DNA from: Zygnema cylindricum
Lineage: Eukaryota; Streptophyta; Zygnematophyceae; Zygnematales; Zygnemataceae
Length of the DNA: 64,000 bases
NCBI GenBank assembly: GCA_037447655.1
Contig: JBBHKE010000541.1
Span: 248,001 to 312,000, forward strand
Direction of reading: 5' to 3'
Of the stretch, positions 8,273 through 63,204 are shown in pieces. Position 1 is the stretch's first letter; every line of letters begins with the position of its first letter. A program made the translations under genes and the position numbers. The notes under the pieces were generated by a model. It was not told the origin of the DNA, did not search any database, and saw only the letters and a program-made list of their open reading frames with translations.

Positions 8273-8277
8273 ATTCA

Positions 8278-40072: not shown

Positions 40073-42170
40073 ACTAAGCATCATCAAAGTTAAACTACAA
40101 AAATGTTGTTGGCGCAATTTTGGAAATCAAACATATATAGCAATTAAAACTTGTAAGACTAGCTTGTGGACGCGTCAACGGTTATTACGGCTGATGAACA
40201 TGCCCTAACACATGGTGCGACACACTTAAAAGAAGGTTTTATTTTTTTTTGCGGGAAATAAAGTATGCTCGAGGTAGGAAGGTGTTGAGCAAAACATTTG
40301 TTGTGATCGTAAACTCCATTAGGAAATATACATACTGGCCAAAATTTTGACATTACAAGGTCCAATAACAACGCATCTTCAACACTTAGTGCTTAAACGA
40401 AAGGTCTTTTGTAGGTCAATACAAAATTTTAATGCGCTTTTGCAAAGGAGCAACACAAAACTAACCTTTTGGGCACCAAGCCAAACATTTTATTGGTTTA
40501 GCAAACATATCAACCTAATAAACTCGTTCCACAAAAATTGAAACGTAGAGATAACTTGGTCAATAAGAACCATCATATATGTGTTGTATGTGATGGAGGA
40601 GACTAAACAACCATTAAAGGTCGTAGTTTGATGCGTGTAGAGCTTTAAGGTTGACTAAAAAATTAAGGTGCCCTTTAACGATTACCTTGACGAGTGCGAG
40701 TTACAAATATGAAGGTGGCCATAACAAATTTAGGAACCTTGAAAAGAAAGACTAAAAAAATATTGAAGAATTATTATATGGTTATAGGATAAATTCCTTC
40801 AAAAGGCTCGAAAAGAGCAATAAGACTTGTCGCAACAATAAGCGGTGTAACATTGTGAAGTATGTATGGTCGAACCATCTTTGAAGCCACTTTGAATGTA
40901 TTAGTGCAACCTTAAGATGGGCTCTAAGAGTAAATACATATCGAAGGAGTTTATAGGCCATTCCGGTTGGACCTTACGCTAAAAGGTGAGGGGAGCTGAT
41001 CACAACCTTGATAAACGCTTCGCAATCGAAGTCAAACTATCTCAAAAGATAATGGACATGAGCGAATGGAAAGATGTCTTAAGGTGTTGGAGGATGTAGC
41101 AATGTTTAAGATTTCACACTTTCACATAGAGCCAAGTTTGAACATAGTCACAGAAAGGATTAAACGCAGATTTGGCCGCGCCCTCTCATTCGTGAAAGAT
41201 GGCCAAAGTATGTCAGGGTCTCGTCCATTTTATCGAGTACGATGAATACTTGCTAAGTTTGACAGCGTATTTAAAAAGTAAAGTTCGTACAGAAAGTATG
41301 TTCAAACTTGAAGTTCGAACTAAGATATAAAGTTCGGATACAGGTCGTACACTATGTTATTTGTGCATGAAACGTATAAAAAGTGCATCGACGGCCAGGG
41401 TGATGTCCTCTAAATCGGGAAGTAAAATGAATAGATTTTATTTCCAAGAACGCGATGGTAATACCATCACAGTACAAAACATGATTGTCACTAAAAAGTA
41501 TTGATGACCAACAAAGGTTAAAGACCAAAATCCTAAAGGACTAAAAACACAACAAAAATGCGTTAAAAGCCTAAAAGGAAAGAAAGAAAGCAAGTACAAC
41601 AAAACCAAACTATTGAAACACTACAAACTAACCTAGACGCTAAAGCCTCAAACTACGCCCAACTAAAGATCAGAACTACGGATATCGTCTATATGCGCCG
41701 GGTGGCGCGAATAACGCTCTGTATCCAGAGATCCGGTCTTCGAATGCCTTCCCAGCTTCCCCCCAAAACAATAGTTTTTTGATTTTTTTTTTCAGAGGTT
41801 TACCGTACATATATCTGTACGGCAGCATACTCCACAGTACGTTCTGTACTTCTTGCCGGCGCTCCTTCCCTACAATTCCGCTGACTCTCAACGGTAATGT
41901 CATAGATTTCAAAATGTAAAAAAAAAAACGGAAACATTATATATGTTGTTTTATGAAGTAAACACGTAAAAAACTAAAAAACAGCAGCAAACCGTATAAT
42001 ACGCGTATTTTAAATAGTCTTCGCACGTTTAAACTAGCCGTGAAGTTCTATGCTGTTGATTCTGTTTGTCGTTTTCCCGCCACAACGCTCCTCTCCTTCC
42101 CTCCCTCTCTTTCCCTCGCATTTTCAAATTTCAAGTGCAACTATTGGCTTCCCCTGGTTCGTGACATTCG

Positions 42171-42173
<3 letters not shown>
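40073..42173. other. AT-rich intergenic, no gene seen
   Basis: Short frames only (for example 41912-41676 minus, 78 codons, Lys/Arg rich, no motif). No LTR, RNA gene or conserved domain recognised. Confidence 0.5.

Positions 42174-42243
<70 letters not shown>
42174..42243. repeat. (CT)n microsatellite
   Basis: About 35 perfect CT dinucleotides. Confidence 0.95.
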
Positions 42244-42248
<5 letters not shown>

Positions 42249-42325
42249 CTCCCACTATCTCCCTTTCCACAGGCGTACGGATATATTGTTTTCTCCTCTA
42301 TTTCCCTGTCCTTTTCATATTTGAA

Positions 42326-42358
42326 GTCTCTCTCTCTCTCTCTCTCTCNNNNNNNNNN
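42326..42358. other. (TC)n microsatellite running into a 10-N assembly gap
   Basis: TC repeats from about 42327 to 42348, then ten N at 42349-42358. The true length is unknown. Confidence 0.95.
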
Positions 42359-45300
42359 GCTTGTGTTAGAGGTTGTGTTGGAAGGCCAAATACACGGAAC
42401 GACAAATGACTTGAGCTGTCAAAATGAGGATTGAAGAAGGCGGAAGGGTAAGGATGGGTTGAGATGAGCCGACGGATCCGCACGAGCCTTCCGGGGGGGG
42501 GTAAGGGCGGGTAAAAACATGCTCCACGTTAACGAGATGGGAGAGCCTCGTATTTAGGGGAAAAGCGAGGCTGGAAGAGGGGGTCATTTGGTGACGTAAG
42601 TTGAGAGTGTGTTGGAGATTGTGTTCGCCGAGTCGAAAAACCATCGACCTTGGCTAAGGGTTATAATGGATTGAGCAGGATTTGGGCCATATCTTTGCGA
42701 CGAGACATCGGAGTTACGCGCCTTTGTGGGTGTCTCAAATAAGACTATGCGAGCTTTCCGACGACCTATCGCACGCCAAAATCCGGCAAACAAGAGGAAA
42801 CAAGAGTGAAACGGGTAGTTGTTCCCCTAAATTGGGTATCGCGGCAAATTTCAGCCGTATCTTTGGAACGAGCCATGGGAAACGTGCACCGTTTATTTCG
42901 CTGTAGAAAAGACTTCGAAAGCAACGTAACGACATAACACACGTTGATTTCTGCATAAGGCGAGTGGCAAAATCCGAAAGTTTCACTTAGTACCGGAAGT
43001 CGTATGCGGCGAGTCAAAAATGCCAAAAATCCGACCAAGTACCGTGAACCCCCCCTCCCCTCCCCCCTCCCTTTTACTACACTCACTTATCGACGTAAAA
43101 CCACAATCTACCGTCTCGTTAACTAGTCTATGTCGTGTGAGTCTGTTCGAGACCACCCTTGGTGTACCTTAATAATAGATCAAAAATAAAGTTTATTCTA
43201 AGTGAAATCCAACGAAATCCGGTGCTTTTTGAAGCGATTTAATCAAAAAACCACCGATATCAACAGACATGGCAAATTTTGCACTTGAAGAAGATACTTT
43301 CACACCATACTGGGCTAAGATAAGGTTCCATAGACTTTAAACTACTCAACATGCCATTTTTGGAGAAAATAAGGTCGAAATTAGGTGGTATTTAGAGAAG
43401 CCTACGTAACATGCTATTACTATGAAAACAACCCAATTTTGACCTTGTTTTCCCGAAATATGAAATATTGAAATGAGTTTTCTTCTGATAAAACAAAGTC
43501 ATATTCCGATACGATGTTCAAGTTTCGACTTCAAATGCCAAATTTGGGACAGTTTGTAATGGTGTGTCCATACCATTTCGGACGAATCACAAGTATCATT
43601 TTCTTTACCAACAGCTGAGTTTATCTTCCCATGGCCAGCGCCTTCTTTCTAGTCAATCGGGTGATGATAATGAGACCGTATTTTACTAATAACTCACTCT
43701 CACGAATTACAAGCGCTCGACAATGGCTTTTTTTTTGAGAACCAAGAAAAAGTCAGGGGTATCCCAGGGAGAGGTTGCGATGAAGCAAACACTCCTAATA
43801 CGTCCGACTCTTGCTGGTATTCGCCAAAAATGCGATGTTCGAGTTGGGTTGAATTACGTTCAAACGAGGTTACTTTCCAATACGGTGTTCAAATTAAGCC
43901 ATCAAATGCGAAATTTGGTACCGAGTTTCCTATAGGAAAACGGTAAGCATTATCATCTGATTGGGAAAGTGTAGCACCACAATACAACGCAACACCCAAT
44001 ATTCTCATTCGGGGCAAAGTGTCGTCTAAATTCCATTCAAAAATGAGTAAAATTACACACAAAATTTTTATACCCATTTCCGCCAACCAACTTTGCACCG
44101 GTTCCGACCAATTTTACTTTACTCATAAAAAGTACCAGGATCATGAAGCCAACAATTTATTCCAATATAAGATGTCATTTTAAGACTTTTCCATTAGAAC
44201 AACACATGCCGAATTCTCCACCGATCATCCGTTGTAATTCCTCAAAATTTGTTTGCTCGTAGTCCACTTTAGTGGACTGAAATGAAGCAGCTCTACGGTT
44301 TAGAACTTTATTTCACTTAATTTGGATAATTAGGCTACAAGATATGTGAGGTCAAAGTAGTGTTTTGGTGCAGATTGTAGAAACTTTGACGTTCAATATC
44401 TTTTCAACGGCTTGGTTAAACATGCTTTATTTTATATTGATAGATAGAACATTTTAATACCTTTCTAATGAATGTTTGTTTGGATTGATCGGATAGAAAT
44501 TATTAGAGATATGGCAGTTTCTGTAAACTGCATAATCTAGGTTAATTATTGACTTTTTGAAGTAATGATTGCTTTTGCCGGTTGGAAATTAGTACAGGCT
44601 GTCCAACCGACTTTTCATAAGTCAGAATTTCTGACGTTTTCGGGAAATAAACATAGAATGAGTCTCGTAGTGTCAGATTTTGATGCTAAGTATTAGTTCT
44701 AAGTACTTTAGGTTGTTGGAATTCAATATTGTCTTGGAAAATGAAGGCTAAGAACTGTCTCTCTGTTCTGTCGCCTTCCAAAACCTGAACACACCAGAAA
44801 AGAGCTATTTTGCCACCCTCCCTTTTGCCATCTTTGGATCATGTTGGAGTTGCCTTCCAGTTAGTCAATTTGTGTCTTGTTTGGCAACAAGGATACTTGG
44901 GGCTTTCTGATTGCAATAGTCATTGGGATTCTAAAGGAGGGAGTTGGACGGATCCCCGATTGGGAGGGATCCGTGGGGTTTCGAGAGCTTTGGAGTCTGA
45001 TCACGGGAGTTTTTCCGTAGCCTCAGTTTGCTTCTCTAGGTGGGTCAAAACACTTATTAACTTAGCATTCGGGGACGCTTGAATGTTACTTATTTTGTGC
45101 TAAATTCTTTGGAATATGTTTATATATTGTGGTGAATGGCTTCTATTTGAGTAGGGTAGGAGGCAATATTGTTAAGCTTGCGGGAGGCAATATTGTTAAG
45201 TCTGCAGAGATCACTGTTATAAATGTTATGGCAGTCTAAATTATTTCCATTTTGATTTGATATGTTAATTCCCGAATTAGGGTTATGGTTGACTTTCTTT

Positions 45301-45520
45301 TGTTTAAAGTTGTTAGCATAGCCCAGCGAGCTTGATGATATTAAAGCTCGCGGTTAGACAAAACTGAGAGACCGTGCATTGTTTTGTTTCATAAGGTGCA
45401 CTTGTGTCTTTCATTTCGGTTTATTTTTTATATAAAAATGTCAAAAAAAAATATAGATGGATGTTGGAATAGAAGGGGAGGTGGGGGGGCACCTCGTAGA
45501 CACATGTTTGGAACCCCGGA
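42359..45520. other. unrecognised non-coding region upstream of the Gypsy element
   Basis: No convincing frame. A motif like TATCTTTG-ACGAG-CAT-GGA occurs near 42692 and 42854, about 160 bp apart. Another, ending CAAATGC-AAATTTGG, occurs near 43530 and 43903. A C-rich run lies at 43049-43074. The 5' LTR of the Gypsy element should lie in the last kilobase, but I cannot set its ends without the second copy. Confidence 0.4.
45159..45200. repeat. two direct copies of an 18-bp word
   Basis: GGAGGCAATATTGTTAAG occurs at 45159-45176 and 45183-45200. Confidence 0.85.
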
Positions 45521-47645
45521 ATGGGTGAAACTAGCTCTTCCTCTCGAAGGGCTGGCCAAATTTTTGCAGATTCGGGGATGCCATTGGTGCCATCAGTTTC
45601 CTTTACAGGTGGAGGACAAGACATTCCAAATCTCTTAAGTCCTCCCCCAATTTCACAATTTTGGCCCCACTCGGCTGAAGATTTCACAAGGGATTATAGA
45701 GACTGATGATACTATTTTTGGATCTGATGCATTGGTAAAGGAAAAGACGGGGACGAAAGCAAAACCCATTTCATCACCAAATGGAATAGACAATCGGAGA
45801 GTTAGACTTCGACTAGATCTAGGGGTGATTTTCAAGGAGAATTTTTAGAAAATACGAGAAAATTTGGAAATTAGGTTGCAGCAACACTCACCCATACCTA
45901 AAGCTATTCTTGTTATCACTCCCCAGACAAGAACAAACCCTTCTCCTTCCCCTCCTTCTCCCTCTAGCTCCTCCACCTCGTCTTCTACACCATCTTCACC
46001 CATTTCCCCTCTTCCTCCTTCAAGAGGTTTACCCCTCAACCCTACCTTTAACTCTTTTCATTTCCCTCCTCCACCTAGTGATGAAGAGGAACATTTACAC
46101 CGGCAGGGTGATGGAGGTAACATTATAGATAAATCAATTTCATCTCATTCCACTCCTTCATCACCATCCACCCCTTCTTCACCTCCTTCTCCAAAATCCT
46201 CGTCATTGGTCCCTGATTCTTATAGTCCTTCGGAGCCACCCGATCCTCCTTCACCGATTGGGAGTGTGCCGTCTTTGGGGAACCCTATTTATCCTATTTT
46301 TGATACCACTTCTTCGGAAAACAGAGGATTTCGATTGCCGTTTGAAAACGGTTTCCGCATGGGGGATAACTCGAGGTTATTTACAAGGGATGCATCGGGC
46401 ATTTCTTTTTCTTTGTTTAAACTCTAATGGGAGTCTTTTTATGCCGCTGAAGTTAACAAGTACCGAGGAGGTGTGGTTGCGGCCGACTTAGAGCGGATGT
46501 TATTTCCGATGATGGTAGATTGATAGGCAGGAGGGGTTTTATCAGATTATATGGAGAGGAAGACTGGCTTGACTACTCCAACTATTAAGATTTCGGATCC
46601 GACTTTGGACAAGTCCCATGTTACTGCGGTGGTTGATCTCCAGGCAACCATCCGTTAGCCTATTTCAGCCACGTACATGTTTGATGATAAGTTACGTGAT
46701 GAGACATTACCTTACTCCTAGATGAAGAGATCAGAGTATGTGGCTATTGTTGCTACGAGGATGGAGGTGAATTCCCAACCTTGTACCACATTACTTGGTA
46801 TATGGGAGACTCAGTATACAGAGCGAGGTGAGTCTTCCATGAGAGAGTTTCATGAATTTAAACGGAAGCTTGATGAAACTCCTCTCACTATGTACAACCG
46901 CCTTGCTAACCTTTGTGTTCGAACTCAGCAAGATATTAAAAATCCGTTGATAATTGCTAAGTTTGAACACGCGTTGTCGAAATCCCTTGACCTGAAGACG
47001 ACCCGAAATTTAGAAAATTGGACAGCTCAGAAAGCTCTTAATGGTCTTCCTATCACTGCTTTTGATCTTGCTACCGTTGCTCAAAAATACCATGACCACT
47101 TTGCAGATCGGGAAGCTCAGGAGAGGACCATGATAGGGAAAGTTCGTAAAGATGAAGCATTTTCTGGATCCAACACTCCTTTTGTCACCAATGCTGAATT
47201 GAATGCTGCTATATCACGAGCAATGAAAGGGAAGGGAGTAGCAGAGCCGAATCCGCAAGCTCATGGAGCGGATAGACAAATCCTATTCTCATGCAACAAT
47301 TGTGGAGAGGTTGGACATGGTTGGCAAAAATGTCCGAGACCTTTATCAGTTGAGTTCGCAGCAAAGAGGGCAAAGATTGACGCCGAACGAGATGCTCGGA
47401 ATGTGGCACGTGGAGTTGGTGATCAGAGAAAGGGGAAAGATGGTGGAGGTCGAGACAACAGGAAAGGAGGTGACACCTCAGATGCACAACAAGTGGAATT
47501 TCAGAGAATTCGTCGAATTAGGCTTCCTCAGTTGGACCATCGAAACATTCCTGATGATTTGAGGGCAAAGTTCTCCACTCCTAATACGACATGCGTGGCG
47601 TGTCGATATCAGAGCCATACGGCGGCTCAATGTTTTCGAAAATAA
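45521..47645 (+). pseudogene. Gypsy gag with two CCHC knuckles, broken
   Basis: Starts MGETSSSSRRAGQIFAD at 45521; a frameshift near 45676-45706 moves it into the main phase. The next part (45864-46427) is Ser/Pro-rich and disordered. The capsid-like part follows (WESFYAAEVNKYRGGVVAAD, later LLGIWETQYTERGES, LDETPLTMYNRLANLC, typical of retrotransposon gag). In the 307-codon frame from 46722, knuckles lie at residues 191-204 (CNNCGEVGHGWQKC) and 291-304 (CVACRYQSHTAAQC). Six or more stops break it. Confidence 0.82.
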
Positions 47646-49211
47646 CGGATTCCGAAAGAATTGCTTAAATATGTGAAGACAAATCCTGCTACAAGGAAAG
47701 CATTTATGAGCATTCCCACTTTTTGTCAAATTTATCTCCCTCGTGGGACGTTTCGACCCGAGGGGGAGAGGAACGAGCCCGATCCGGTTTGGGGGGCACA
47801 ATTCGGAAATCCAACTCCTTTTTAGACGAAATTACAAAAAAAGTTGTTGGAAGTCAAACAGAAACTTGATTCATTGATGAGAGAGAACACAAGTGAAGGT
47901 GCTTCTTCTTCAAAGTCGGCCAAGAAATTAGAGAAAGAGGCACGGTTGGCTTACCTAACTAAACAAATGGCAGCTATACAGACGGAAGATTCAGATTCAG
48001 ATGATGATCCGGAAGGATGGGAGAGGTCAGACCACTTCCGGATGAGTGGATTATTTGCAGGTGATCCGATTTTGTTTAATGTTGGCATAGGAGAGAGTAG
48101 GAGGCAATTACGAAAAACCACTGAAGATCAAAGGAAAGACAAGTTACAAGCAAGGACTAATGATCATGAGAGGAAAAGGCAATCCGACATTCTTTCTTTT
48201 ACCCCTCGACAAGTCATTTTGAAGACGAAAGTTGGTTTAGGGGTTAAAGCTGATTCTCCACCACCATCTCCACCAAAGGTAACCACTTCTAATGATCAAA
48301 CCACTGATTCCTCCTCACCAGAGACCACTGAAGACAAACTGGACGACTATTTCACTCCTCTCACCACTCGGGTGGATTCTCATCCTACTTCGACATCAGA
48401 TCCGCCCATCCCACCTTCTCGACCTTCCGCCATGTTAGTGGATCTTCTCATCCCACACTCTATAGAGTTAGTTCGCACTTTGGCTAACTCCCATCAAATT
48501 TCGGATGAAAAACTCATTTCGGCATTAGGATCAAAGTTCACCGGCAAGGTGACATCCACAGATGCTTTTGGAGCACCCATTTCATCTTCCGATTCCAGTT
48601 TTGGTAGCTCGGCGAAGGTTCCAATTGCGGATAGGGATTACTCTTCTTTGGCTGTTGCATATATTGGTAACTCTTCCGGACACTTTAAGATTAATGGTTT
48701 CGGTGGTTTCCTCCAAACCTTGGTGGATACTGCGGCCTTTCTTAACCTTATCTCTACTAGTGCTTTGGAGAAATTGCCACCCAATTGTAGGCCAAAAGTA
48801 TTTTCCAGTAAAGTGTGCCTAAGCACGGTTAGTAGTGGTAATCAACCAGTGTTTGGTATGGTGAAGGGAATGGATATCGAATTTGGAGATGATGCAGGTC
48901 AAAAGATTTTTATTCGTCTCCCGTTTCTTGTGGTGGAGGGCAATCAGTTTGAAATTTTATTGGGAACCCATACATGGTCACAATTGGGAGCCATGGTAGA
49001 TTTTTGGAGCGAGCAAATCTGCATTCGGGATTTGTCAACTTCACTCGCTCGCCGCGTTTTTGTCCCTCTCACTTTGTGGGGACGTCATCATTCCCAGGAA
49101 GCGGCGGCAGGCTGCTACCCGGTCTACACTAGCAATGCTTTCTCAATTCATTCTTCTAAATTTTCCATTGAATCGGAGGATGAATCCACCGACATTGCCC
49201 CTCTTATATAG
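47646..49211 (+). pseudogene. Gypsy linker and retropepsin-like protease
   Basis: Open from 47844 for 455 codons. Residues 1-60 are charged, with an acidic patch; 135-195 are Ser/Thr/Pro-rich. The protease region is about 275-395: LVDTAAFLNLIS holds the catalytic Asp295 with Thr and Ala instead of the common Thr/Ser-Gly, and FEILLGTHTWSQLGAMVDF is the usual second half (ILLG followed by the Trp-Leu region). A TAG at 49209 separates it from the methyltransferase, in the same phase. Confidence 0.75.
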
Positions 49212-49256
49212 CAATTCCCGATCTCCGCTGAGTGGGAGGAATCCCACAAACGGAGA

Positions 49257-50500
49257 TTGGAGGTAGCGGCTTCTTTGAGACGAGGTCACGAAAAAGTGTT
49301 CAATGTTTTGATAGATGAGAAGACATTACCGTGTTCGACAAATGTATCCAAAAGAAGAACCGAATTTCGACATTTTGTTCAGGGGCATATTTTGACGCCA
49401 CTTCCTCGAGAGGTGGTTCATTTGACACCAGAGCCGGCAGGGTTAACGGTGGTCTCTTTGTTTTCTGGCATTAGTACGGATTTAGAAGCTATATTGATGA
49501 ACGGCCACCAGATTAGAAGTTATTGGGCCGTGGAAATTTCATCTTCAGCTCGGGCAGCGAGTGAATTTCGACTATTAGAGCTTCACCGATTGTACCCTCT
49601 CCAATTACCTGTATCTGCTATTTCACAATCTCATCATCGACTCCCACAAAATGTTGACTTAATTACTTCACAAGATATCCGAGATTTGGGGGGGGTAGAT
49701 TTAGTGATAGCTGGTTGGCCTTGTCAAGGATATTCTCAGGCAGGGAAAGGAAGGGGAAATAGTGACACTCGGAGTCGTTTATTTTATCAGATGGTTTATA
49801 TCCTCAACCTTTTACAACTACATCAACATAAGCCGTTGGGATACTTGTTGGAAAATGTCTTCCCTGGTGCGGATCAACGTAGTAAGGTAGTTACTGCTTG
49901 GCAGGAGACCATTCACTATTTGGGGGAACCTTTAGTATTTGATGCAGCTCAGATGGGGTCTCGTGCTTTCCGTCTTCGCTCATATTGGACTAATCTTGCT
50001 CCTCTTCCACTATTAAAGGCCGCCGTGGGATTACAAAAGCGTCCGCCAAACCTCACCGTCGATCAGATTTTAGACAAAGGCCGTACAGCTACTCCTGTCA
50101 CATCTACATCTCGACAACTATTTTTTGACTGCAACAAATCTGGTCAACCAAAAAACGCACTTCCCACTCTACATCTGACAACTATTTTTTGACTGCAACA
50201 AATCTGGTCAACCAAGAAACGCACTTCCCACTCTGGTTTCATTTCCTCGGAGCCATGCTTATCGTTTAGGTTCCCCTGGCATGATCTTTGACACTAATAC
50301 AAAGAAATGGGATGTGCCCAATATCAATGAACGAGAACGAGCCATGGGTTTTCGCACCAATACTACTGCCGCTCCTAATCTCTCCCTTGACACCCGTTGC
50401 CGTTTGATAGGTCAAGCTATAGATTTACACGCATTACAGTGGTTAGTTGGTCTTACACTATCTCATGGTCCTTTGCATTCTTACCAGCATCGCACTTCAT
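49257..50500 (+). CDS. retrotransposon-borne C5 cytosine DNA methyltransferase (DNMT3-like), split by a frameshift
   Basis: Transfers a methyl group from S-adenosylmethionine to cytosine C5. In the 311-codon frame from 49257: motif I VVSLFSGIS (65-73), motif II YWAVEIS (89-95), motif IV DLVIAGWPCQGYSQAGKG (148-165) with catalytic Cys156, motif VI LLENV (197-201) with Glu199, motif VIII GSRAFRLRSYWTNL (234-247). After a 64-bp duplication the frame moves by one; there 50281-50500 gives NERERAMGF (motif IX) and RLIGQAIDLHALQWL (motif X). The motif I, VI and VIII wording is nearer DNMT3/DRM than DNMT1. All catalytic residues are kept. It lies between protease and RT in phase with the Gypsy polyprotein. 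Reading frame damage makes this copy inactive as it stands; ancestors were probably active. Confidence 0.85.
50104..50232 (+). repeat. tandem duplication of 65 and 64 bp inside the methyltransferase
   Basis: Units 50104-50168 and 50169-50232 are the same but for one missing C and an A-to-G change. The second unit shifts the frame by one and causes the stop at 50190-50192. Confidence 0.9.
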
Positions 50501-50935
50501 TTTTACAAGCTCCAGCTCGCCTGGCTATGCAGGTCACACTAGCGCTTGGGGGGGGGAGAGATAGAAAAATTCATCAAAAGATCCAACAACAGAAAACCAA
50601 GGAGGGGAGACCAAAAGAACGAGAGAAGCAAGTGCATAAGGTAGAGGATGTTTTGTGGGTGTCTAGTAGGGTGTTACAGGAAGGAGATAGAGCAAAGGGG
50701 TTGGGGGGGGACGAGTATGATCCGTCCCAGTGGACGAGGCCACCGGAGAGTTTTGCAACTGTAGAACCGGGGAAGATGGATTGAATTATTGAAGAACGTT
50801 TAGAGGAGAGCCAAAAGTCTAGAATTGTGGATCTATTGGGAAGGAATAAGGATGTGTTTTCGTGGGCTGATTCAGATGTTGGGATTTACAAGGGCACACC
50901 ACCTACAAGAATGTCATTTTCTCTAAAACCAGGAT
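50501..50935 (+). pseudogene. Gypsy linker and first residues of the RT region
   Basis: Open to a TGA at 50782-50784, Lys/Arg/Gln-rich, with DPSQWTRPPESFATVEPGK; then ERLEESQKSRIVDLLGRNKD and VFSWADSDVGIY, which matches the conserved stretch preceding Gypsy reverse transcriptase (compare DVFAW...DMPGI in relatives), ending at MSFSLKPG. RT itself is absent. Confidence 0.75.
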
Positions 50936-51830
50936 AGTTAGTGAGCTCAAAGTCATCGGAATTTTTTGACTCAAATATGATCGTTACTGACTTTGTATAC
51001 TTGAAGGGATCCACAAACTTTCCTTCATCCATAACTACTAGATGCTTTACTAAGATTATATCTTCCTTTTTTAGATCGTAAACTCTATATCGTTTAACAT
51101 CCTCATCATATCTTAATAAGTATCCCGGTTTTCTTTTAGGATCTAGCTTTCAATTAGACCGATCTGTATCTAGACTGAATACTTGACTGCCGAAAACCTT
51201 TAAGTGAGATATGTCTGGTTTTCGGCCGGTCCATCTCTCATAAGGTGTTTGATCTTTTATAGCTAAAGTAAGAACTCTATTTTTGAGGTAATTAGCATAG
51301 TTCATTGCTTCTGCCCAAAACGTTTTTCATATCTTCTTATCTGACAACATACTTCTAGCAGTATCACTTAGTGTCCTATTTAATCTTTCTGCTACCCCAT
51401 TCTATTCCGGGTTTTCTAGAACTATCTTTTGGTGTTGAACTCTATCTTCCCTCAGAAAATCCTCAAACTTGTTAGAAGTATACTCTCCACCATTGTCTCT
51501 CCTTACTCTCTTGATTAGAGTTTCATGGAGTTTTTCGCTCCATGCTTTATATTGTCTAAAAAAATCCTGAGATTTTGACTTGTTTTTCAAAAAATACACC
51601 TTGGAATACCGAGACCAATCATCAGTGATAGTCATCATAAATCTCTTCCTCCCCGGTGAGGGCACTTTGGCCGGCCCCCAAATATCCGTGTGTACTAAAT
51701 CTAGAATTTTTTCTCCCTTATAGTGAGTTGTTTTGGGAAAGGTTAATCTGTGTGCTTTACCTTGAGCACATCCACTATAATCACTTAGATTCTCACTCTC
51801 ACCGAACTGAATCCCTTCCACCACTCAATC
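50936..51830 (-). pseudogene. Copia element E: integrase, truncated element
   Basis: Minus strand 51824-51402: CAQGKAHRLTFPKTT, LVHTDIWGPAKVPSPG, VRRDNGGEYTSNKFEDFL, followed by a stop and degraded ENPE-AERLNRTLSD; further down GRKPDISHLKVFGSQVFSL and a KDLIL-KHLVVMDEGK stretch. The element ends at 50936 against the Gypsy remnant. RT and RNase H of E are missing. Confidence 0.85.
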
Positions 51831-51951
51831 TTTTTCATCTCTCTTAGCTTATTTAGATTCACATGCCCAAGCCTCTTATGCCACATCATTATTTCATGAA
51901 CACCAGCATAATAAAGTTTCTTGTTTTCATTGCTTAAAATCAGCCTAAACA

Positions 51952-53411
51952 TCACTTGGCTACCTTTTTAAGCAGTGAAATAAACTTCACTCCTTCCCTA
52001 TTGCTGGTATCAAAGCCTTTATCATCTAATATAGACGTATAGATGAGGTTTTTGTTCAGCTCCAAAATAAACAATACATCGGAGAATGTAACTAACGATG
52101 TCTTTCCTTCTGGTAACACTTTCAAATCTACCGATTGTACAAAAGTAGTAGTGACTATCCTCCCATCCTCGTACTCTATCTCTACGGTATGAATCTTTCT
52201 TATCTTAGTGAACAGGTGGTTATCCTTACACATGTACATCGAGGCACTTGAATCTACAATCCAGCCTACTTCACCTTTCAATAAACCGAAAGCACATTTC
52301 TGCTTTCGTGGAATTTCTATCTTGTTTGTCGCTTTCAACTCCTCATCCAATAGGTGCTCATCGTCCTCGTCTTTGGATTCCACCTTATGTACCTGTGTCA
52401 CAAGGGCCTTTTTCTTTCCTCTCGGGGTTCCACCGGTCTGCCCCTCCTTTAACCGAAGCTCGGTTAGCTTAGTGCACTCCGCCATATAGTGCCCTAGTTT
52501 CTTACAGAAATGACATAAATCCTTAGGAGCTCTTGGTCCGAACTCGTCGGTCTGATTTTTCTCCTCCCACCCTCTGTATTTTCCGACCGATTTCCATAAA
52601 TCCTTGTTCCTCCAATCGGTCCTTGCTGCCAAGACTTGCCCACTCTTTCCTCCCATTCGGATCTCAATTGTATTCTCTCGAACGAGAATCATTCCTACCA
52701 ATGAGTTCCATATCCACCTTGAATCCGGCAAGTCCTCCACTCGGTTGACTATGTTCTCGAACTCATCGGGTAACTTCATCAGTAGATAGTTAACCTTTTC
52801 TTTTTCACTGAAATATTTTACAGCACTCTCTAGCTCCATGAAAAGTGTAGCAAGCTCATTGCAAAAATCCAATATCGTCCCCTCTTTGTATACATACTCC
52901 TTAACTTTTTGATAAACCAACAGTTGTTGTTGAATCGTACCACTTCGGTACATCTCTATAAAGCCACCCAAATATCGGATGCCCTTTCTACGTGCAAATG
53001 AGGACATGCAAGTCCTTGAGTAAGATGGAAGAGGATGAAGTGCTTTGGCGCCATATTGTTGAAGTCCCACGTATCAGTATCATTCTCCTCGTTCCTCGGA
53101 ATAGGTGACATGAATTCTGAACCAGTTGCTATTGGTGTGACCGTCTCCTTCTCTTTTCGTTTGTTCACCACCTCCCCTTCCTTTGTCTCCTCCGTTGAAG
53201 ATGGATCTGCATCTCTAGTGAATTTGCCTCCTGTAAACCCTGGAGGTATCCCAAGACTTGATGGACGCCTCACCCGTCCACTCACTATTCCCCAAAAACG
53301 TTTCTCACATAAAGCTTCTGTCATTATAATTTCCCAGTATATGAAGCTTGCTCCATTGAATATGGGCACCCTAGATGGTGGGCCCATAACTTGCAACTTT
53401 GAGACTTCCAT
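51952..53411 (-). pseudogene. Copia element E: gag and protease
   Basis: Starts at 53411 with MEVSKLQVMGPPSRVPIFNG inside the LTR and PBS. A frameshift near 52960-53060 joins it to a 372-codon frame with YLLMKLPDEFENIVNRVEDL, zinc knuckle CHFCKKLGHYMAEC (near 52465-52506), KKKALVTQVHKVESKDEDDE, and a protease site WIVDSSASMYMC (Gly to Ser). Close relative of elements D and A. One of the longest open gag-protease frames in the window. Confidence 0.88.
53377..53391 (-). other. element E primer binding site, half initiator tRNA-Met
   Basis: Minus strand GTTATGGGCCCACCA, complementary over all 15 bases to the plant initiator tRNA-Met anticodon region (UGGUGGGCCCAUAAC, from my knowledge of that tRNA). 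It lies directly inside the LTR end and encodes VMGPP of gag. Confidence 0.78.
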
Positions 53412-54426
53412 AGGCCCTCAAAGTAGGCAGCTCACATGAAGCCTCTAAGATAACCCTAACCCCTTTGTGTTTCAGCAAGAATAACTACCACCCTGGCACA
53501 CAAAAACACTGATAACCTTCACCTCTATGAACGCAAGACTTCCTTGAGCCGATAGCAAAAAGAATCTCTGAATTTGCTCCCCTGAGCAGTACGTTATGAA
53601 GGGTCAAAGTTGAACTTTTGTATAGAAGCTCTTTGGGAGATATGGTCCAATCTATGAAATTTTTTTAAGTCATATCTCTCTCTAAAACTCTATCTACTAA
53701 AGTACGGCATCAATCATTATACTGTATCGCACAGAATGGTACAAGTGCCGGTGTACTTTATGTATCGCCATTGTACGACATGGCCAATAAGTCAACACAT
53801 GTCATTTTTGGATTCGATCCTGAAATCCCAAGAGATGTCGTATTCCAATATAGTTGTGCCATGTGTCATTCGATGTGACGTTGACCGCAAATTACCAAAA
53901 AACTATTCCACAATCTCAGCATGCTTCGCGACAGTCTGATTAAAACAGATTTCAATTGTAGCCGTCATATATACTTGCGCGATATTTGTTTTGCCTTCGA
54001 AACAAATTATGCGGTATCCGTTACAACTATTCCGTATGCCGTAAATTACAAATTTTTTTTATGTCAAAATATCCTGTTAAATGAAATGGCCTACGTGTAC
54101 AGATTTATCTATTTATCAAACCCTATATCCTATAACTTTGATTTTAGTCTAATTGGCTAAGGCTACCGGCTACATGCAGCTTTGGCGGACGGTAGGTACC
54201 AGGTTCAAATCCTAGGTCCGTCAATAACTATTTTGGTAAATTTATTAATCTAAAGTCTGTCCCCGTCTAGATAGCATAGGCGACCATGGCTCTATCTCCC
54301 TCTCCAACTTTTAGTGACTGCGGCAAGTGTGGGAGTTGGAGAGAGGAGTTAGAGGCAGACTGCCTCTGCTTCTTTACTGCATTTTACACAACCTAGAAAA
54401 TACTAAAATAGCATTTAATTTCTACA
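53392..54426 (-). repeat. LTR shared by elements D and E
   Basis: 1035 bp, minus-strand start TGTAGAAATTAAATGC at 54426 after the purine tract AAAATAAGGGGAG, end AAAGTTGCA at 53392. It is the 3' LTR of D and the 5' LTR of E. Confidence 0.85.
54145..54224 (+). promoter_or_regulatory. tRNA-like segment in the D/E LTR
   Basis: TAGTCTAATTGG (54145-54156) fits an A box and GGTTCAAATCC (54202-54212) fits the B-box consensus exactly, about 45 bp apart as in tRNA genes. It is antisense to the LTR. No full cloverleaf forms. Confidence 0.5.
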
Positions 54427-54439
54427 CTCCCCTTATTTT

Positions 54440-55960
54440 CTAATCACTCTTTATTTTAAGACCACACTTCTCTCGGCAGAAAATTAGTTTAGGAGAAGGC
54501 ATAGGTTTGGTCATCATATATGCTACCATTTCACTATCTGGTTTATACTCCAAACTGATTATTTTGTTTTCTACTTTCTCTCTAACAAAGCTAAGTCTAA
54601 TGTCCATGTGTTTGGCTTTAAAGTGAAGTTTAGGATTGGCAGAAATGGCAATGGCAGCCTGATTATCACAAAACAATTTTTGGACATCACTCTTAAGATG
54701 ACCAAGCTCACAAAGCAAAGACTTGACCCACATTAGTTCTTTTACAGCAGAGCAAGAAGCCATGTACTCAGCCTACATGGTGGACAGGGCAATGACCTTT
54801 TGTTCCTTGTTGCTCCAGCAGCAAGCTCCATCACCCACATATAATACATATCCAGATGTGCATTTCCTCATATGAGCATCCCCATAGCTGGCATCACTCC
54901 AAGTGGTGATGTCAGTATTGTTCCCACCAAAATGTAACCATAGATCCCTAGTTCCTATGAGATATCTAAAGACTCTCTTAGCTACCTCCCAATTTTTTTT
55001 AGTGGGAGCATTTAGACTCTTACTTAGTACTCCTACAGCTGCGGCTATGTCCGGACGGATACAATTCAAGAAATATATTAGGCTGCCCAATACTTGTCTA
55101 TTAGGGATGGTCTACATGATTTTTTTCTTTTCCGGGCCTACCTCATCATCTAGGATTATAACTCCATATTCCACACTCCCCTCTCTTCCCTTGTTTAATT
55201 CCATAGGAGTGGTACAACTATTAGCCTTGTCCATTTGGATTTTTTCTAACATATTTCCAATGGCCTCTTTTTAAGTTAATCGTATTATTTTCCTATCTTT
55301 GTCTCTCTCTACCTGAATTCCCAAAATAACTCTTGCTTCTCCCATATCCTTCATCTCAAATCTTCATTTTTGATCATTTTTCAACTTATTTATTTTATCC
55401 ATAGATTTACTTAAAACAAGCAAATCATCAACATAAATTGCAATAAAAATAATTCCTTCCTCCTCCTCGAACAAATAAATTGAGTGATCTGAGCTGATCC
55501 GAATATATCCCAAACCTGTAAGAAACTCATCGAGCTTCTTGTTCTATTGTCGGGGCGCCTGTTTCAGCCCATACAAAGATTTGATCAATCGGCATACCTT
55601 GCTTTCCTCCCCTTGCTCCACAAATTCTTCGGGCTATCGCATAAAAATTTCCTCTTCCAACTCTCTATGTAGGAAGGCCGTCTTGATGTCCATCTGATGC
55701 ACTTCCATGTCTTCTGCTGCCGCCATACTGAGAAGTATCCAAACCGAATGAAACGTGACGACCGGAGCAAAAGTCACCTCGTAGTCAATTCCCTCTTTTT
55801 GGGTAAATCCCTTCGCCACTAATTGAACCTTTTGGCGCTCAATGGTGTTATCCGGGTTGAGTTTCAACTTAAACACCCATTTACACCCAATTGGCTTCCT
55901 GTTAGTAGGACAATCCATCAATTCTCATGTATCGGCAGCCATAATTGAGGCCATCTCCTC
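54440..55960 (-). pseudogene. element D reverse transcriptase and RNase H, broken
   Basis: RT starts near 55921 ([59 protein letters not shown] then a stop). The catalytic AIYVDDLLV is at about 55413-55443. Several stops follow (QR-stop, FRKW-stop type changes). RNase H: 55090-54773 with NCIRPDIAAAVGVLSKSL and TTWSDASYGDAHMRKC, a stop in the STM-AEYMA region, and 54763-54440 with CDNQAAIAISANPKLHFKAK and MMTKPMPSPKL. Confidence 0.88.
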
Positions 55961-56046
55961 ATTAATGGCTGTCTTCCACCATCTTCTCTCAGGACAAGTC
56001 ATTGCCTCAATGTAAGTTTGAGGTTCTTCGAGGTGAGACAGTTTGG

Positions 56047-57310
56047 TTACCTTATTGTTGACTTGCCTCTCTTGCAGTCTTTTGCTGCTTCTTCTTCCTC
56101 CCTCAAACTCGGTTGCCGAAATGATGGCTCTCTTGAATTCTTCCGATCAATTTCTACTTCTTCCCTATCCCTTGCTTCCGCGTCGATTTCCACCACGTCT
56201 TCCGCTTCGGTTGGAGTTAATACTAGGGGTTTCACATTTGGGTCCTTCTCGATTTGATTTGTGCCTGCAAGATCATCATCTTCTTGAAATCTTGGATAGT
56301 TAGGAAGCTCAAAGTCATCAGAATTTTTTGACTCAAATCTGATTCTGACTGTCTTTGTATGCTTAAAGGGGTCTATGGATTTTCCTTCATCCATAACCAC
56401 TAGATGCTTCACTAGGATAATATCCTCTCTTTTGAGAGCATAGACTCTATATCCTTTTACATCTTCATCATATCCTAGTAGATATCATGGTTTTCCTTTT
56501 GGATCTAACTTCTAGTTTGACCGATTTGTGTTTAAACTAAACATTTGACTATCGAAAACCTTTAAGTGTGAAATATTTGGTTTTCGGCCTGTCCATCTCT
56601 CATATGGTGTTTGGCCTTTTACTACTGAAGTAAGATCTCTATTCTTGAGATAATTTGCACAATTCATTGCTTCGGCCCAAAAGTTCTTTCCTATCTACTT
56701 ATCTGACAGCATACTCCTAGCACTTTCACTCAATGTTCTATTTAATCTTTCAGCTACACCATTCTGCTCAGGATTTTTCGGAACTGTCTTTTGATGTTGC
56801 ACTCCATCTTCTCTCAGAAAAATCCTCAAACTCGTTAGTGGTATACTCTCCACCATTGTCACTCCATACTCTCTTGATTGAGGTTTCATGGAGTTTTTCA
56901 CTACATGCTTTATATTGTTTAAAACATTCCTGAGCCTTTGACTTATTTTTCAAAAAATACACCTTGGAATACCGAGACCAATCATCGGTGATAGTCTTCA
57001 TAAATCTCTTCCCCCCGGGTGATGGCACTCTAGCTGGCCCCCAAATATCTGTGTGTACTAAAATCTTTTCTCCCTTATAGGTGGCAGTTTTTAGGAAGGG
57101 TAACCTGTTTGCTTTACCTTGAGCACATCCACTACAATCACTTAGATTCTCACTCTCACCGAACTGAATTCCTTCCACTACTCCGATCTTTTTCATCTTT
57201 CTTAACTTAACTAGATTCACATGCCCAAACCTCTTACGCCACAACATTATATCATGAACACCAGCATAATAAAGTATTTTGTTTTCATTGCTTACAATAC
57301 CCCTAAACAT
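56047..57310 (-). pseudogene. element D integrase and linker, broken
   Basis: Minus strand 57310-56768: MLWRKRFGHVNLVKLRKMKK (zinc motif with His to Arg), CSGCAQGKANRLPF, VHTDIWGPARVPSPGG, RVWSDNGGEYTTNEF, then a one-base shift; EQNGVAERLNRTLSESARSM continues in another frame. The C-terminal GRKP region (near 56590) and a linker 56412-56047 (KHLVVMDEGKSIDPFKHTKT, Glu-rich) follow. Confidence 0.86.
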
Positions 57311-57439
57311 CTCTTAGCTACCTTTTCAGCAGTAAAACAAACTTCCTCCTCAAAACTAGCATTAAAGACTCCTTTCCTAGTGCTATTATCAAAACCCTTA
57401 TCATCTAATACAGACATAGAGATGAGGTTTTTAAGCAGC

Positions 57440-58790
57440 TCAAATAAACAATACATCGGAGAATGTAACTATGGATGTCTTTCCTTCTACTAACATTTTT
57501 AGATCTACCGATCCTACAAGGGTAGTAGTGACTATCCTCCCATCCCGGTACTCTATGTATACGGTGGGAATCTTTCTTATCTTAGTGAACAGGTGTTTAT
57601 CTTTACACATGTTCATGGATGCACCTGAGTCTACAGTCCAACGTGCTTCACCTTTTAATCCACCGAAAGCACATTTCTGCTTTCGTGGAATTTCGACCTC
57701 GTTTTTCGCTTCCAACTCCTCATCCAATAGGAGTTCATCGTCCTCGTCCTCAGATTTCGCCTCATGTACTTGTGTCACAAGGGCCTTTTTCTTTCCTCTC
57801 GGGGGTCCACCGGTCTGCCCCTCCTTTAACCGCAGCTTGGTTAACTTAGTGCATTCAGCCATATTGTGCCCGGGTTTCTTACAAAAATGGCACAAACCCT
57901 TGGGAGTCCTTCGTCCAAACTCCTCGGTCTGATTTTTCTGCCCCTCACCTCGATAATTTCCAACCTGATTCTTGGAATCATTATTCCTCCAATCGATCCC
58001 AGCTGCCAAAGCTTGCCCACTCATTCCTCCCCTTCGGATCTCAATCATATTCTCCCGAAACAAGAATCATTGCTACCACTGAATTCCAAATCCACCTTGA
58101 GTCCGCCAAGTATTGCACACGATTGACTATGTTCTCGAACTCATCGGGTAACTTAATCTTTAAACAGCTAACCTTTTCCTTTTCACTAAATACTTTTCCA
58201 CCACTCTCTAGTTCTATGAAAAGTGTAGCAAGCTCATTGCAAAAGTCCAACATCTTCCCCCCTTTGTATTCATACTCCTTATTTTTATGATTAGCCAATT
58301 GTTGTTGTTAAATCGTACCACTTTGGTACATCTTTATGAGAGCCACCCAAAGATCGCATGCTGTCTCTACCTGCAAATGGGGAGATGCAAGCCCTTGAGT
58401 AAGATGGTGGAGGATGAAGTGCTTAGCCGCCATATTCTTGTAGTCCTAGGTATCGATATCATTCTCCTCGTTCCTCGGAATGGGTGACATGAATGCCGAA
58501 CCGGTTGCTACTAGTGTTACCGTCTCCTTCTCCTTTCTTTTGTCCACCACCTCCCCTTCTTTTATCTCCTCCTTTCAATATGGATCTACATCTTTAGTGA
58601 ATATGCCTCCTATAAACCTTAGAGGTATCCCAAGACTTGATGGACGCCTCACCCGTCCACTCAATATTCCCCAAAAACGTTTCTCACATAGAGCTCATGT
58701 CATCATACTTTCCCAGTATATGAAGCCATCTTCATTGAATATGGGCACCCAAGATGGTGTGCCTATAACCTGTAACTTTGAGACCTCCAT
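57440..58790 (-). pseudogene. element D gag and protease, broken
   Basis: Gag starts at 58790 (MEVSKLQVI-like, in the LTR). 58298-58041 holds MLDFCNELATLFIELESG and KLPDEFENIVNRVQYLAD; after a shift, 58063-57440 holds the zinc knuckle CHFCKKPGHNMAEC, a Glu/Asp-rich linker and the protease site WTVDSGASMNMC with the standard Asp-Ser-Gly. Confidence 0.86.
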
Positions 58791-59824
58791 AGGCCCTCAA
58801 AGTAGGCAGACCTCCATAGGCCCTCAAAGTAGGCAGCTCACATGATGCCTCTAAGATAACCCTAACCCCTTTGTGTTTCACCAAGAATAACTACCACCCT
58901 GGCACACAAAAACTCTAATCACCTTCATCCTTGTGAAGAGAAGACTCTCGTTAGTCGATAGCAAAATGAATCTTTGAATATGCTCCCCTGAGCAGTAAGT
59001 TATGAAGGGTCAAATTTGACCTTTTGTACAGAAGCACTCTGGGAGAGAGGGTCCAATCTATGAAATTTCCTATCTCTCTCTAAAACTCTATCTACCGAAG
59101 TACAGCACCAATCATAATATTATATCGTACAGAAAGATATAGGTGTCGGTGTACTTTTTGTACGGCCATTGTACGACATGGCCAATATGTCGACACATGT
59201 CATATTTGGATTCGATCCTTAAATCGCTGGAGATGTCGTATTCCAATATGGTTGTGCCATGTGTCATTCGATGTGACGTTGACTGCAAACTGCTGAAAAA
59301 CTCTTCCACGATCTCGGCATGCTTCGCGGTTGTCGGATTAAAACGGATTCCAATCGTAGCCGTCATAAATACTTGCGTGATATTTGTTTTGCCTTCAAAA
59401 CAAATTGCGCAGTATCCGTTTCGACTATTCCAAACTCCGTACATTACAAACGGTTTCTATGTCCAAATATTCTGTTAAATGAAATAGCCTACATGTACAG
59501 ATTTATCTATTTATCAAACCCTATATCGTATAACTTTGATTCTAATGTAATTCGCTAAGGCTACCAGCTACAAGCAGCTTTGACGGACGGTAGGTACCAA
59601 GTTCAAATCTTGGGTCCGACAATAACTTTTTTGGTAAATCTACCAATCTAAAGTCTCTCCCAGTCTGGATAGCATAGGCGGCCATGGCTCTATCTCCCTC
59701 TCCAACTTTCACTGACTTCGACAAATGTGGGAGGTGGAGAGAGGAGTTAGGGGCAGACTGCCTTTGCTTCTTTTCTGCATTTTACACAACCTAGAAAATA
59801 ATAAAATAGCTTTTAATTTCTACA
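58771..59824 (-). repeat. element D 5' LTR
   Basis: 1054 bp, minus-strand start TGTAGAAATTAAAAGC at 59824, end AAAGTTACA at 58771. It contains a 27-bp tandem duplication (about 58782-58836) of the part holding CCTCCATAGGCCCTC, which also doubles the gag start codon. A tRNA-like segment lies antisense at 59545-59618, with the canonical loop TTCAAAT in a perfect 5-bp stem. Confidence 0.84.
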
Positions 59825-61289
59825 CAAAGATGGGAGTAGATGCAAAGGTAGAGATTCTAAGATCTCCAACAACTAGATATTAACATAGAGCTCCACATCA
59901 GATGCTACTTTTGTCTCCTTCACGAAGGTGATGCAATCGGCATCAACTTCCCAAATGGATTCAATGATCACATTGCTTATCCTATCCCTTCCTAATAAAG
60001 TGGCTAATCAACTCACCGAGATCGGAGGAAGGTGACACGGAGCACAGCAATAGAGGAGTTGAAAAAATCCCGGGCCAACACGGAATTCGAGTCACTCGGC
60101 GATAAAGACCCTATAATCTCCACCAACGCATCTGCTACAAGTGGACAAAGAGGATCAAAAGCTGTCAGAAATCGGCAAAGATTGAGGTACAAGTCCTAGA
60201 TCAGGAGCACAACCATAGAAGCAACGACGCTGCTGATTACAACAACTCCAAGGGAGAAGGAAGGGACGGACATGAGAAATCTGCAAACGGATGGCAGAAA
60301 ATCAGATGGCAGAAAAATATTAAAACATCAGTCCACACAAGAAAAGTTTGGCCAAATTCCAAGAAACGCAAGGAAAGCGTGGTCACACATGAGTGTCATT
60401 TCACAATGACAAGCAGAGAATTAGTGGGAGGATAAAGGCGAGGGAAAAGGAAGGGGACGACTCACAAAGCAGCCTTCGTCATCATGTGACAAAAATCAGA
60501 CTGCCCCGTGGATTAGGAAATTAGACACAACCACCTACACCTTCACCACCAATGTTGACAGATCTAGAAAAGAAATTTATGTTCTGTGAATGAAGAAAAG
60601 TGTTACATGTCAGACATAGAGAAACTAAGAAACAAAAACAGAAATTATGTAAACCAAGAAACAAAACCAGAAATTATGTTAGTAAATCTGACAACAAAAC
60701 CAGAATTTGGTAGATGACTCAAACTGATAACGATGTATTTTTTTTTACGTAAGCAAAGACAAGGTAAGAACCAAGTCAATCTTTAGTAAAATTCAGTGTA
60801 TCTGAACAGACTCAAAATCACTTCTCAAAACAAGTTACAAATCAGGTTTTAATGGAGACTTTGGAGGGAGGTAGACAAGATTCAAAGAGAGGCAGTAAGA
60901 ACATCAAAACTCTCATTTCTAAAGGTCATAAAACTCACCAAACAGAAAGAGTCAAGACTGAGAAGAGGCACGTGAGGAGTTATGATGTCAAAAGTAGCCA
61001 TTGGACCATAAATGGGTACATAAATCCGTTAATGTTCATATAGACTAAGGCGGAGAGGACAGTAAGGTCTATCTGCATGATAGTTAAGTGGACTCATCAG
61101 ATCTAGAGTCACCAAGGTAGGGGAACCAAGATGAAGCCAAAATAGGAGAAAAGTATGTTGGATACTAAAGGGACAAACTAAAAAATTTTGAGGGAGAAGA
61201 TCTAGTGCACATATTAGTAAGGAGACCAACAAAAAAAAAAAAAACAAGTCTAGCTCTGAGAAACAACTCCAAAGACCAGAGTGCATTCT
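59825..61289. other. no gene or known repeat recognised
   Basis: A-rich sequence with short frames only. An A-run occurs near 61229. Nothing supportable. Confidence 0.5.
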
Positions 61290-61637
61290 GTTGTTCTGAG
61301 ACAACTGCTGACATTGAAGATGAAGAAGATGCAGCAGTAGTCATCATAGAACAAATCAAGAGAGGAAGCTTCCACAAATACCGATGGCTGAACAGAAACT
61401 TTGACAGACTATAACTTTCAGTACAGTAATCTAGTTGTCCTGAAAATATATCACAGTTTAGATAACAAAAAAAAACACACACACACAAAATTTCAATCAA
61501 TTCCGCTAACAAATCTGTGAGATATGCAGAAATGAAATTACATAAAACTGAGTGTACAGTTTTCATATCATTTGTTCCTAATGAATCAAATTCACTAAGT
61601 CCTACTTCTATACACCGAAACTACACTAAGCTGTACG
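61290..61637 (-). repeat. B/C-family fragment: LTR part and gag start
   Basis: Minus strand: YLWKLPLLICSMMTTAASSS and AVVSEQ match the gag start of elements B and C (near 61400-61290). The 61410-61637 part matches their LTR (compare 30200-30380). It ends at CTAAGCTGTACGG against the RT of element F. Confidence 0.78.
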
Positions 61638-62629: not shown

Positions 62630-62639
62630 ATATGAAGCG

Positions 62640-63198
62640 TGTAAATATGTTTAGATCGGACGGCCGGCATTGTAGCCGCCACACGAAGTGAGCTTTTGGC
62701 GTCATTTGGAGATAGCGTCACGCGGTGCCACGTGGCGCCACATTATTTGATACCGGAGAAGATGGGAGGAGGAACCATGGCTCTCGTTTTCACAGGTGTC
62801 ACCTTGTAGACCATGTCGTACAATGGCCATATAATAAGTAAATCTCTTATTGTACCTTCTTGTACTATATAGTGTTCCTATTAGAGTTGGGTTTGGTTTT
62901 AGGTAGTCGTGAGTACGCAGACCAAGACTTAGTGAGATTTAGGTACCTCTCTCTAAGAGAGCTTGTTACTATAAAGGTCATCTTTGACCATCCATAACTT
63001 ACTTCTTAGGGGAGCAAATTCAGTGATTTTTTTGCGTTTGACTCAAAGAAGTCACGTCCTCACACGGGTGATGGTGGTCAGAATATTTGTTTTCCTGGGC
63101 GGCACTTATTCAGTGGGAAAGTGGAAGGGGCAAATATTATCCTAGAGGCTTTACATAGGCTGCCCATTCTGTGGGTCAATGGAGACCACATAATTTCA
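62640..63198 (+). repeat. LTR fragment of a third Copia subfamily, 3' part
   Basis: Ends TAGAGGCTTTACATAGG..., then ATGGAGACCACATAATTTCA, where the ATG is 20 bp before the end as in the A and D/E LTRs. The LTR start is missing. Confidence 0.65.
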
Positions 63199-63204
63199 AA
63201 TTCC

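Follow-up and report, generated by a model that had tools for sequence, protein, structure and literature searches.

The Gypsy element KnitGypsy-Dnmt3 of Klebsormidium nitens combines a Gypsy Pol with a Dnmt3-type DNA methyltransferase (MTase) and DIRS-like repeats, and its MTase has a Ka/Ks below 0.2, as described in the main text of PMC5890265. The same main text describes SymbioDIRS-Dnmt3 and SymbioLINE-Dnmt of Symbiodinium, two further retrotransposon-borne DNMTs that were acquired separately. The initial annotation of the DNA studied here had mentioned de novo CG activity for such enzymes. In that main text this holds for the Symbiodinium DIRS-type enzymes, but the Klebsormidium Gypsy enzyme was inconclusive in yeast (PMC5890265).

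The elements that we describe here also have a DNMT3-type MTase in a Gypsy Pol frame and are multicopy and intronless. On the evidence of the PMC5890265 main text, KnitGypsy-Dnmt3 is the nearest described class. It shares the unrearranged Dnmt3-type MTase inside the Gypsy Pol frame, the presence of several intronless copies, purifying selection on the MTase, and a repeat order of A-coding-B-A-B, which we found in a copy on contig C895. That main text, to which the comparison is confined, does not mention a PHD finger, zinc, Marchantia, readthrough, or frameshifting. SymbioDIRS-Dnmt3 is likewise of the Dnmt3 type and shares its Pol with a reverse transcriptase (RT), but the two Symbiodinium elements use a tyrosine recombinase or LINE machinery (PMC5890265, main text), whereas the element described here has a DDE integrase. 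Among the papers listed from the open-licence PMC literature, we found no others on DNMT-bearing Gypsy elements. Nor did we find there, with PMC5890265 represented by its main text, the conserved stop, the PHD finger, the spread in bryophytes, or a layout of RNase H, MTase, integrase, and PHD.

The window, by which we mean the whole 64,000-nucleotide stretch of DNA that was analysed, is part of contig C412. It contains a dead, truncated copy of a multicopy Ty3/Gypsy-type retrotransposon carrying a DNMT3-type MTase. The assembly is 352.8 Mb, and the K. nitens genome is about 104 Mb. All parts of the copy are on the plus strand. It begins with a terminal repeat, A (44301 to 45363), which lacks approximately its first 211 bp and matches the A2 side of the C895 copy (56399 to 57437) at 89.3%. 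The A1 side of C895 (45197 to 46528) matches window positions 44301 to 45653 at 88.6%. Frames and alignment to C895 place a leader and the N-terminal part of gag, with stops inside, at 45364 to 46721; about 1.3 kb of the C895 copy (46528 to 47835) is absent between window positions 45653 and 45685. The next gag frame (46722 to 47645) encodes two CCHC-type zinc knuckles (47292 to 47333 and 47592 to 47633), as the initial annotation had stated, and other copies and relatives have the same order. The C-terminal part of gag and an aspartic protease lie at 47826 to 49208. The protease match (48624 to 49199) is 54% to the protease of another copy, its active site is DTA (48726 to 48734) where other copies have DTG, and its retropepsin-like stretch matches PF13650 with an E value of 0.016, under the curated cut-off.

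A TAG stop at 49209 to 49211, in the context TAG CAA TTC, is the proposed readthrough site. It is followed by the MTase, motifs I to VIII of which lie at 49212 to 50192 and were recognised by PF00145, a family profile, and alignment. The initial annotation had called a C5 MTase in the frame read from 49257, and a Pfam search of the MTase frame bears this out (PF00145 at 49212 to 50189; reported start, 49212; E = 6.5e-14). Motif I is at about 49458. The catalytic residues that had been numbered from 49257 as Cys156 and Glu199 agree exactly with the aligned Cys codon at 49722 and the Glu codon of ENV at 49851. The gag and protease frame upstream is in the same phase as the MTase frame, with nine further in-frame stops (three TAA, five TAG, and one TGA) between 45402 and the junction TAG. 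Within the MTase, the frame is shifted by a tandem duplication of 58 bp at a spacing of 64 (50113 to 50170 and 50177 to 50234, spanning 50113 to 50234). Among 14 loci with this unit, only the window and one other (L040) have the duplication, and the other 12 have a single copy. The C-terminal part of the MTase (motif X region) and a linker continue in the next frame at 50179 to 50784, with 53% over 86 amino acids to the C terminus of P0001, the nearest database relative. The linker of the window copy contains runs of G. The motifs had been described as lying in phase between protease and pre-RT linker. That is correct for motifs I to VIII, but the TAG splits the protease from the MTase and motif X is in the next frame.

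A pre-RT region follows at 50785 to 50936, and DNA homology to the C895 copy stops at about 50901. The element is then truncated by unrelated Ty1/Copia sequence on the minus strand (50937 to 53417, from reading frames), which is not part of it. The proposed location of the MTase between protease and pre-RT therefore stands as an order, with the pre-RT traced to about 50901, but no RT of the MTase-bearing element was seen in the listed reading frames of the window, where Copia sequence follows. A second fragment, from a related element, runs off the left edge on the minus strand (14 to 2471). It comprises a terminal repeat A and the N-terminal part of gag, and it matches C1374 positions 20755 to 23114 at 77% over 2367 columns. 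Broken Ty1/Copia copies are also numerous in the window, on either strand (19500 to 40000 and 51000 to 64000), and the listed frames show long purine/pyrimidine-rich stretches resembling simple repeats (4000 to 9000 and 42000 to 42400). Exons resembling a plant ankyrin-repeat kinase extend over about 8 kb of the plus strand (9793 to 17406), as seen with an approximate probe sequence, and suggest that the host is a streptophyte.

A search of the same genome with the window MTase frame gave at least 126 match rows, corresponding to at least 122 places because four contigs (C1326, C2362, C1100, and C1268) each had two rows that were pieces of one place. These counts are lower bounds from 123 scored candidates of 1577. 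The MTases fall into a small group 77 to 94% identical to that of the window and a large group at 46 to 57%. Among the best 30 loci, window included, 27 have a protease upstream, 24 have RT or pre-RT downstream, and 22 have both. The order protease-MTase-RT that the initial annotation had proposed for a Gypsy element is supported. In two loci (L056 and L058), one frame leads from the junction through the MTase into RT and stays open as far as the sequence was read. Open frames reach 1520 amino acids in L058 and 1525 in C544:127453.

The design of the full element was read from two copies, C1374 and C895, neither of which is free of stops or frame breaks. In C1374, a knuckle-bearing gag and the protease precede the TAG, and MTase, RT, RNase H, integrase (H2C2 and rve), and a PHD-like end follow it; the gag-protease part of this copy contains stops. 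C895, which belongs to the subfamily of the window copy, has the same order and a frame break after the MTase. For the PHD finger, the match in C1374 does not reach the Pfam cut-off (E = 0.005; 17.3 of 24 bits), and that in C895 narrowly passes it (2.8e-5; 24.5 bits). Chromoviruses are Gypsy elements with a chromodomain, a chromatin reader, at the integrase C terminus. The position of a chromatin-reader domain is therefore alike, but here the domain is a PHD finger. The DDE integrase and the RT-RNase H-integrase order of Ty3/Gypsy were found in C1374, C895, and L001 (an element from another source, described below). The window copy is without these, and of the repeat scheme it retains only the truncated A.

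In place of two simple LTRs, C895 and C1374 have split repeats. C895 is laid out as A-coding-B-A-B over about 12.66 kb, with DIRS-like repeats. Its A repeats (44986 to 46235 and 56188 to 57437) differ at only 8 of 1250 sites, and the insertion is therefore recent. Its B repeats are at 55974 to 56188 and 57435 to 57649, its ends are TGTC...GACA, and AAGT is present on both sides. The inner B-A junction GACAGCTGTC was also found in L001, L046, L060, and L072. In C1374, the first B lies 3.7 kb away from B-A-B. The copy at C544:120700-136300 has A at its 5' end and a first B followed by non-element DNA, with no A, in the stretches read. C1374 and C544 have TG...CA-type ends, and no matching target duplication was found in the flanks read. 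At C398, C2462, and C1735, the short stretches read did not take in both ends of the element. Within about 60 nucleotides after repeat A, there was no TGG-type primer site in C895, C1374, or the window. The anatomy predicted from these copies (A, Gag with knuckles, protease, TAG, MTase, RT, RNase H, DDE integrase, PHD, and B-A-B) is almost certainly that of the element.

Relatives exist in other sources. A search with the family profile matched 184 proteins at 1e-10 (120 of the 184 were listed), and a long-query search matched 37. Among the matches listed, the named hosts were Marchantia polymorpha, Calypogeia fissa, Sphagnum troendelagicum (a 281-amino-acid MTase fragment only), and, weakly, Closterium sp. 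NIES-53. The remainder are mostly metagenome proteins, many of them Gag-protease-MTase polyproteins of about 1,160 to 1,450 amino acids. One relative carries an Obscuribacterales MAG label, which is probably contamination. Among prokaryote genomes, the matches were L001 and four Streptomyces loci, and a further 33 loci, mostly short segments at 25 to 59% identity, came from IMG/VR contigs. L001 (positions 1 to 9285) is filed under a Synechococcales MAG (cyanobacterium) and closes on itself with a 127-bp overlap. It encodes Gag-protease-MTase, then TAG CAA TCA, and then RT-RNase H-integrase-PHD, all in one phase. It is a eukaryotic-type retrotransposon and a probable contaminant of a bacterial genome set. 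Bryophyte and metagenome relatives are in the same MTase clade as the elements in this genome, but the stop of L001 comes after the MTase, whereas in this genome it comes before. Twelve long proteins (P0121 to P0126 and P0131 to P0136) have one of two shared endings after the MTase, as if they ended at the same stop as L001, judged from the proteins alone.

P0118, P0144, and P0148 have MTase and then RT in one protein. Three others (P0150, P0153, and P0156) have RT, RNase H, MTase, integrase, and PHD, and so differ from the elements of this genome in having the MTase between RNase H and integrase. Their MTase was placed by coverage and position, and Pfam reports none. P0154 has MTase (below the cut-off), integrase, and PHD; P0068 has RNase H and then MTase; and P0057 has MTase and then integrase. 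This second layout suggests a change in the position of the MTase or a further capture of it.

Selection on the MTase was estimated from stop-free segments only, which were available for 15 MTase, 6 RT, and 11 protease loci of the 30. For the MTase, 35 of 105 pairs were usable (68 were saturated and 2 were too similar). Median dN/dS was 0.116 in subfamily A (6 pairs, up to 0.47), 0.159 in B1 (15 pairs, up to 0.46), 0.156 in B2 (8 pairs), and 0.075 between B1 and B2 (6 pairs, with dS near saturation). RT medians were 0.135 (1 pair), 0.079 (3 pairs), and 0.020 (6 pairs), with 5 pairs saturated. Within subfamilies, the MTase is under purifying selection. Comparison of the copies at the sequence level shows the predicted DNMT3-type MTase to be a conserved, selected part of a multicopy Gypsy-type element with split repeats.

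The enzyme would methylate cytosines of the element's own new DNA or of the chromatin that it enters, and the PHD finger on the integrase would direct insertion through binding to a histone tail. Whether self-methylation is the main role of the MTase we judge at a little under an even chance. There was no CpG depletion (observed/expected 0.674 in 44301 to 50936 versus 0.587 elsewhere in the window; median of loci in this genome, 0.665), and CG self-methylation followed by deamination therefore gets no support. The lack of depletion favours a different role, as does the PHD finger adjoining the integrase, which suggests contact with chromatin: the MTase might act chiefly on the host, by changing methylation or marking target sites, and not on element cDNA. 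However, the position of the MTase would tie it to Gag-Pol and hence to the particle. We regard a mainly host-directed enzyme as possible, though we do not favour it.

The second question is how an MTase behind a stop codon is made. The junction codon could be read at 26 of the 30 loci. It is TAG in 23, TAA in one (L042), TTT in one (L046), and TAC in one (L051). The TAG is kept across subfamilies that are only about 50% identical in the MTase, CAA TTC directly follows it in all 23 TAG copies, and the codon after that varies. Five of the 23 (L044, L049, L055, L061, and L062) contain no other in-frame stop within 1500 nucleotides upstream. As raw pattern counts, TAGCAATTYCCNAT had 480 matches in the genome and its reversed control had 7. 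Because this in-frame TAG is conserved, we infer that it is likely to be a programmed readthrough site. Translation would mostly end at the TAG and yield Gag-protease; a minority of ribosomes would continue past it and add an MTase-Pol extension, and MTase and RT would thus enter the same particle at a low dose. The stop lies before the MTase in this genome and after it in L001, between MTase and RT, which suggests that enzyme dose matters.

Alternatively, the TAG could simply end ORF1, with MTase-Pol made by re-initiation, from a spliced or separate mRNA, or by frameshifting. The classical readthrough context is UAG CAR YYA; the context here, UAG CAA UUC, differs from it, and that of L001 is UAG CAA UCA. 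A conserved RNA structure after the stop was considered and rejected, as there was no clear local drop in synonymous change just after the stop in 14 group-B loci, an ungapped comparison used only up to codon +35, beyond which it is out of register. The lack of a visible stimulatory structure and the nonclassical context are in keeping with a plain end, and so are the downstream frame breaks in many copies. Motif I was recognised in 21 TAG copies, and in six of these a Met precedes it (L043, and L058 and L062 to L065 at residue 19), which also accords with a plain end. However, the two frames adjoin directly in the same phase, the TAG CAA TTC context is invariant in the TAG copies, and the other 15 of the 21 have no Met between the TAG and motif I, which disfavours re-initiation. 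We consider a plain ORF1 end unlikely and prefer programmed readthrough. Past the junction, 10 of the 23 TAG copies have their first stop at residues 449 to 569, in the linker before RT. These linker stops may stem from decay or from homopolymer errors in the assembly, or they may mark a frameshift site.

The MTase has its motifs in unpermuted order by alignment, and the catalytic Cys (PCQ), ENV, and R-x-R that are nearly invariant in the family alignments (A2/A3) are present in the window. Motif VIII, whose wording the initial annotation had placed near DNMT3, needs a qualification: the nearly invariant AHR of the family reads AFR in the window. It is AFR or AYR in all loci of the window's subfamily that show the motif, and so it is a subfamily trait and not copy damage. 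A search of solved structures with the window MTase returned DNMT3B/3A first (6.4e-7), as did a search with P0001. A 33-member family profile matched DNMT3A best (1e-23), followed by 4onj (1.8e-13), which we take to be tobacco DRM, DRM2 (7e-10), and DNMT2 (about 1e-7). Neither DNMT1 nor CMT was among its 48 rows at 1e-5. The predicted structure of P0001, which models that relative and not the broken window copy, has a mean pLDDT of 83.8 and a pTM of 0.86, and its best 50 of 232 structural matches (E ≤ 0.001) are all DNMT3 entries (best, 8.3e-19). Profile and model therefore support the DNMT3-like type given by the initial annotation, with DNMT3 the predicted closest relative among C5 MTases.

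A bacterial or phage origin has some matches in its favour. The MTase matches 324 phage records, the ten best of them at 28 to 30% identity, and the NCBIfam dcm model under its cut-off. However, the same family profile reached only 2e-7 for bacterial HaeIII and 3e-6 for HhaI, far below DNMT3A, and the 50 listed folds are DNMT3. Acquisition from a bacterium or phage is very unlikely, and we retain a eukaryotic DNMT3 as the probable source. A tree was built from 165 of 178 sequences, with one DNMT3A fragment as the sole outside sequence kept; a DNMT3B fragment and all six viral/bacterial MTases were left out for coverage. The window grouped with subfamily A (1.0), next with the 11 loci of this genome that were used (0.995), and after these with P0001, P0118, and further sequences (1.0). 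Another clade (0.98) unites the named bryophyte sequences, and the DNMT3A fragment is on a long branch near the class with MTase between RNase H and integrase (0.81). As built from these sequences, the tree does not separate one MTase capture from several.

If this genome decoded TAG (or TAR) as glutamine, the junction would contain no stop. In the Copia frames of the window, 11 TAG and 10 TAA positions do coincide with Gln of a relative. However, TAG is found equally at Trp (12) and Leu (10), TAA is mostly at Tyr (14), and TGA is at Arg (16), Gly (12), and Trp (6). This mix is what decay under the standard code is expected to produce, and glutamine recoding was therefore rejected, on a comparison that is indicative only because it includes low-complexity and wrong-strand frames. 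Five copies also retain the junction TAG as their sole stop in 500 codons. We consider recoding highly improbable and continue to treat the TAG as a stop. Finally, a join produced by transposons hitting a host DNMT3 gene or pseudogene, which the initial annotation had named as a refuter, or by an assembly artefact would fit the density of broken Copia copies in the window and the damage to this copy. However, the at least 122 places, together with the flanking protease and RT or pre-RT in 22 of 30 loci, rule out a host gene that had simply received a transposon insertion. Proteins of other origin in which MTase and RT are joined (P0118, P0144, and P0148) also stand against such a join, and we give it almost no credence.

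Taken as a whole, we hold the following explanation with good confidence: the window copy is dead, the element has the design given above, its junction stop would be read through, its MTase would be particle borne, and its insertion would be guided by the PHD finger. Transposons are normally silenced by cytosine methylation, and elements that carry and conserve an MTase are therefore a puzzle. More speculatively, there might be a wide streptophyte clade of Gypsy elements that pair a methylation writer (the DNMT3-type MTase) with a chromatin reader (the PHD finger). A leaky UAG, with a place that depends on lineage, would set the dose of the writer, making it a Gag-level or a Pol-level enzyme; the element would have its own epigenetic state, and its split repeats would be moved by a DDE integrase. 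We offer this tentatively, as a proposal that could well be wrong. If it is true, the element brings and controls its own epigenetic state. With more than 100 copies, some with long open frames, and with relatives in the laboratory plant Marchantia, the role of the MTase in the element itself, in integration, or in the host is testable.
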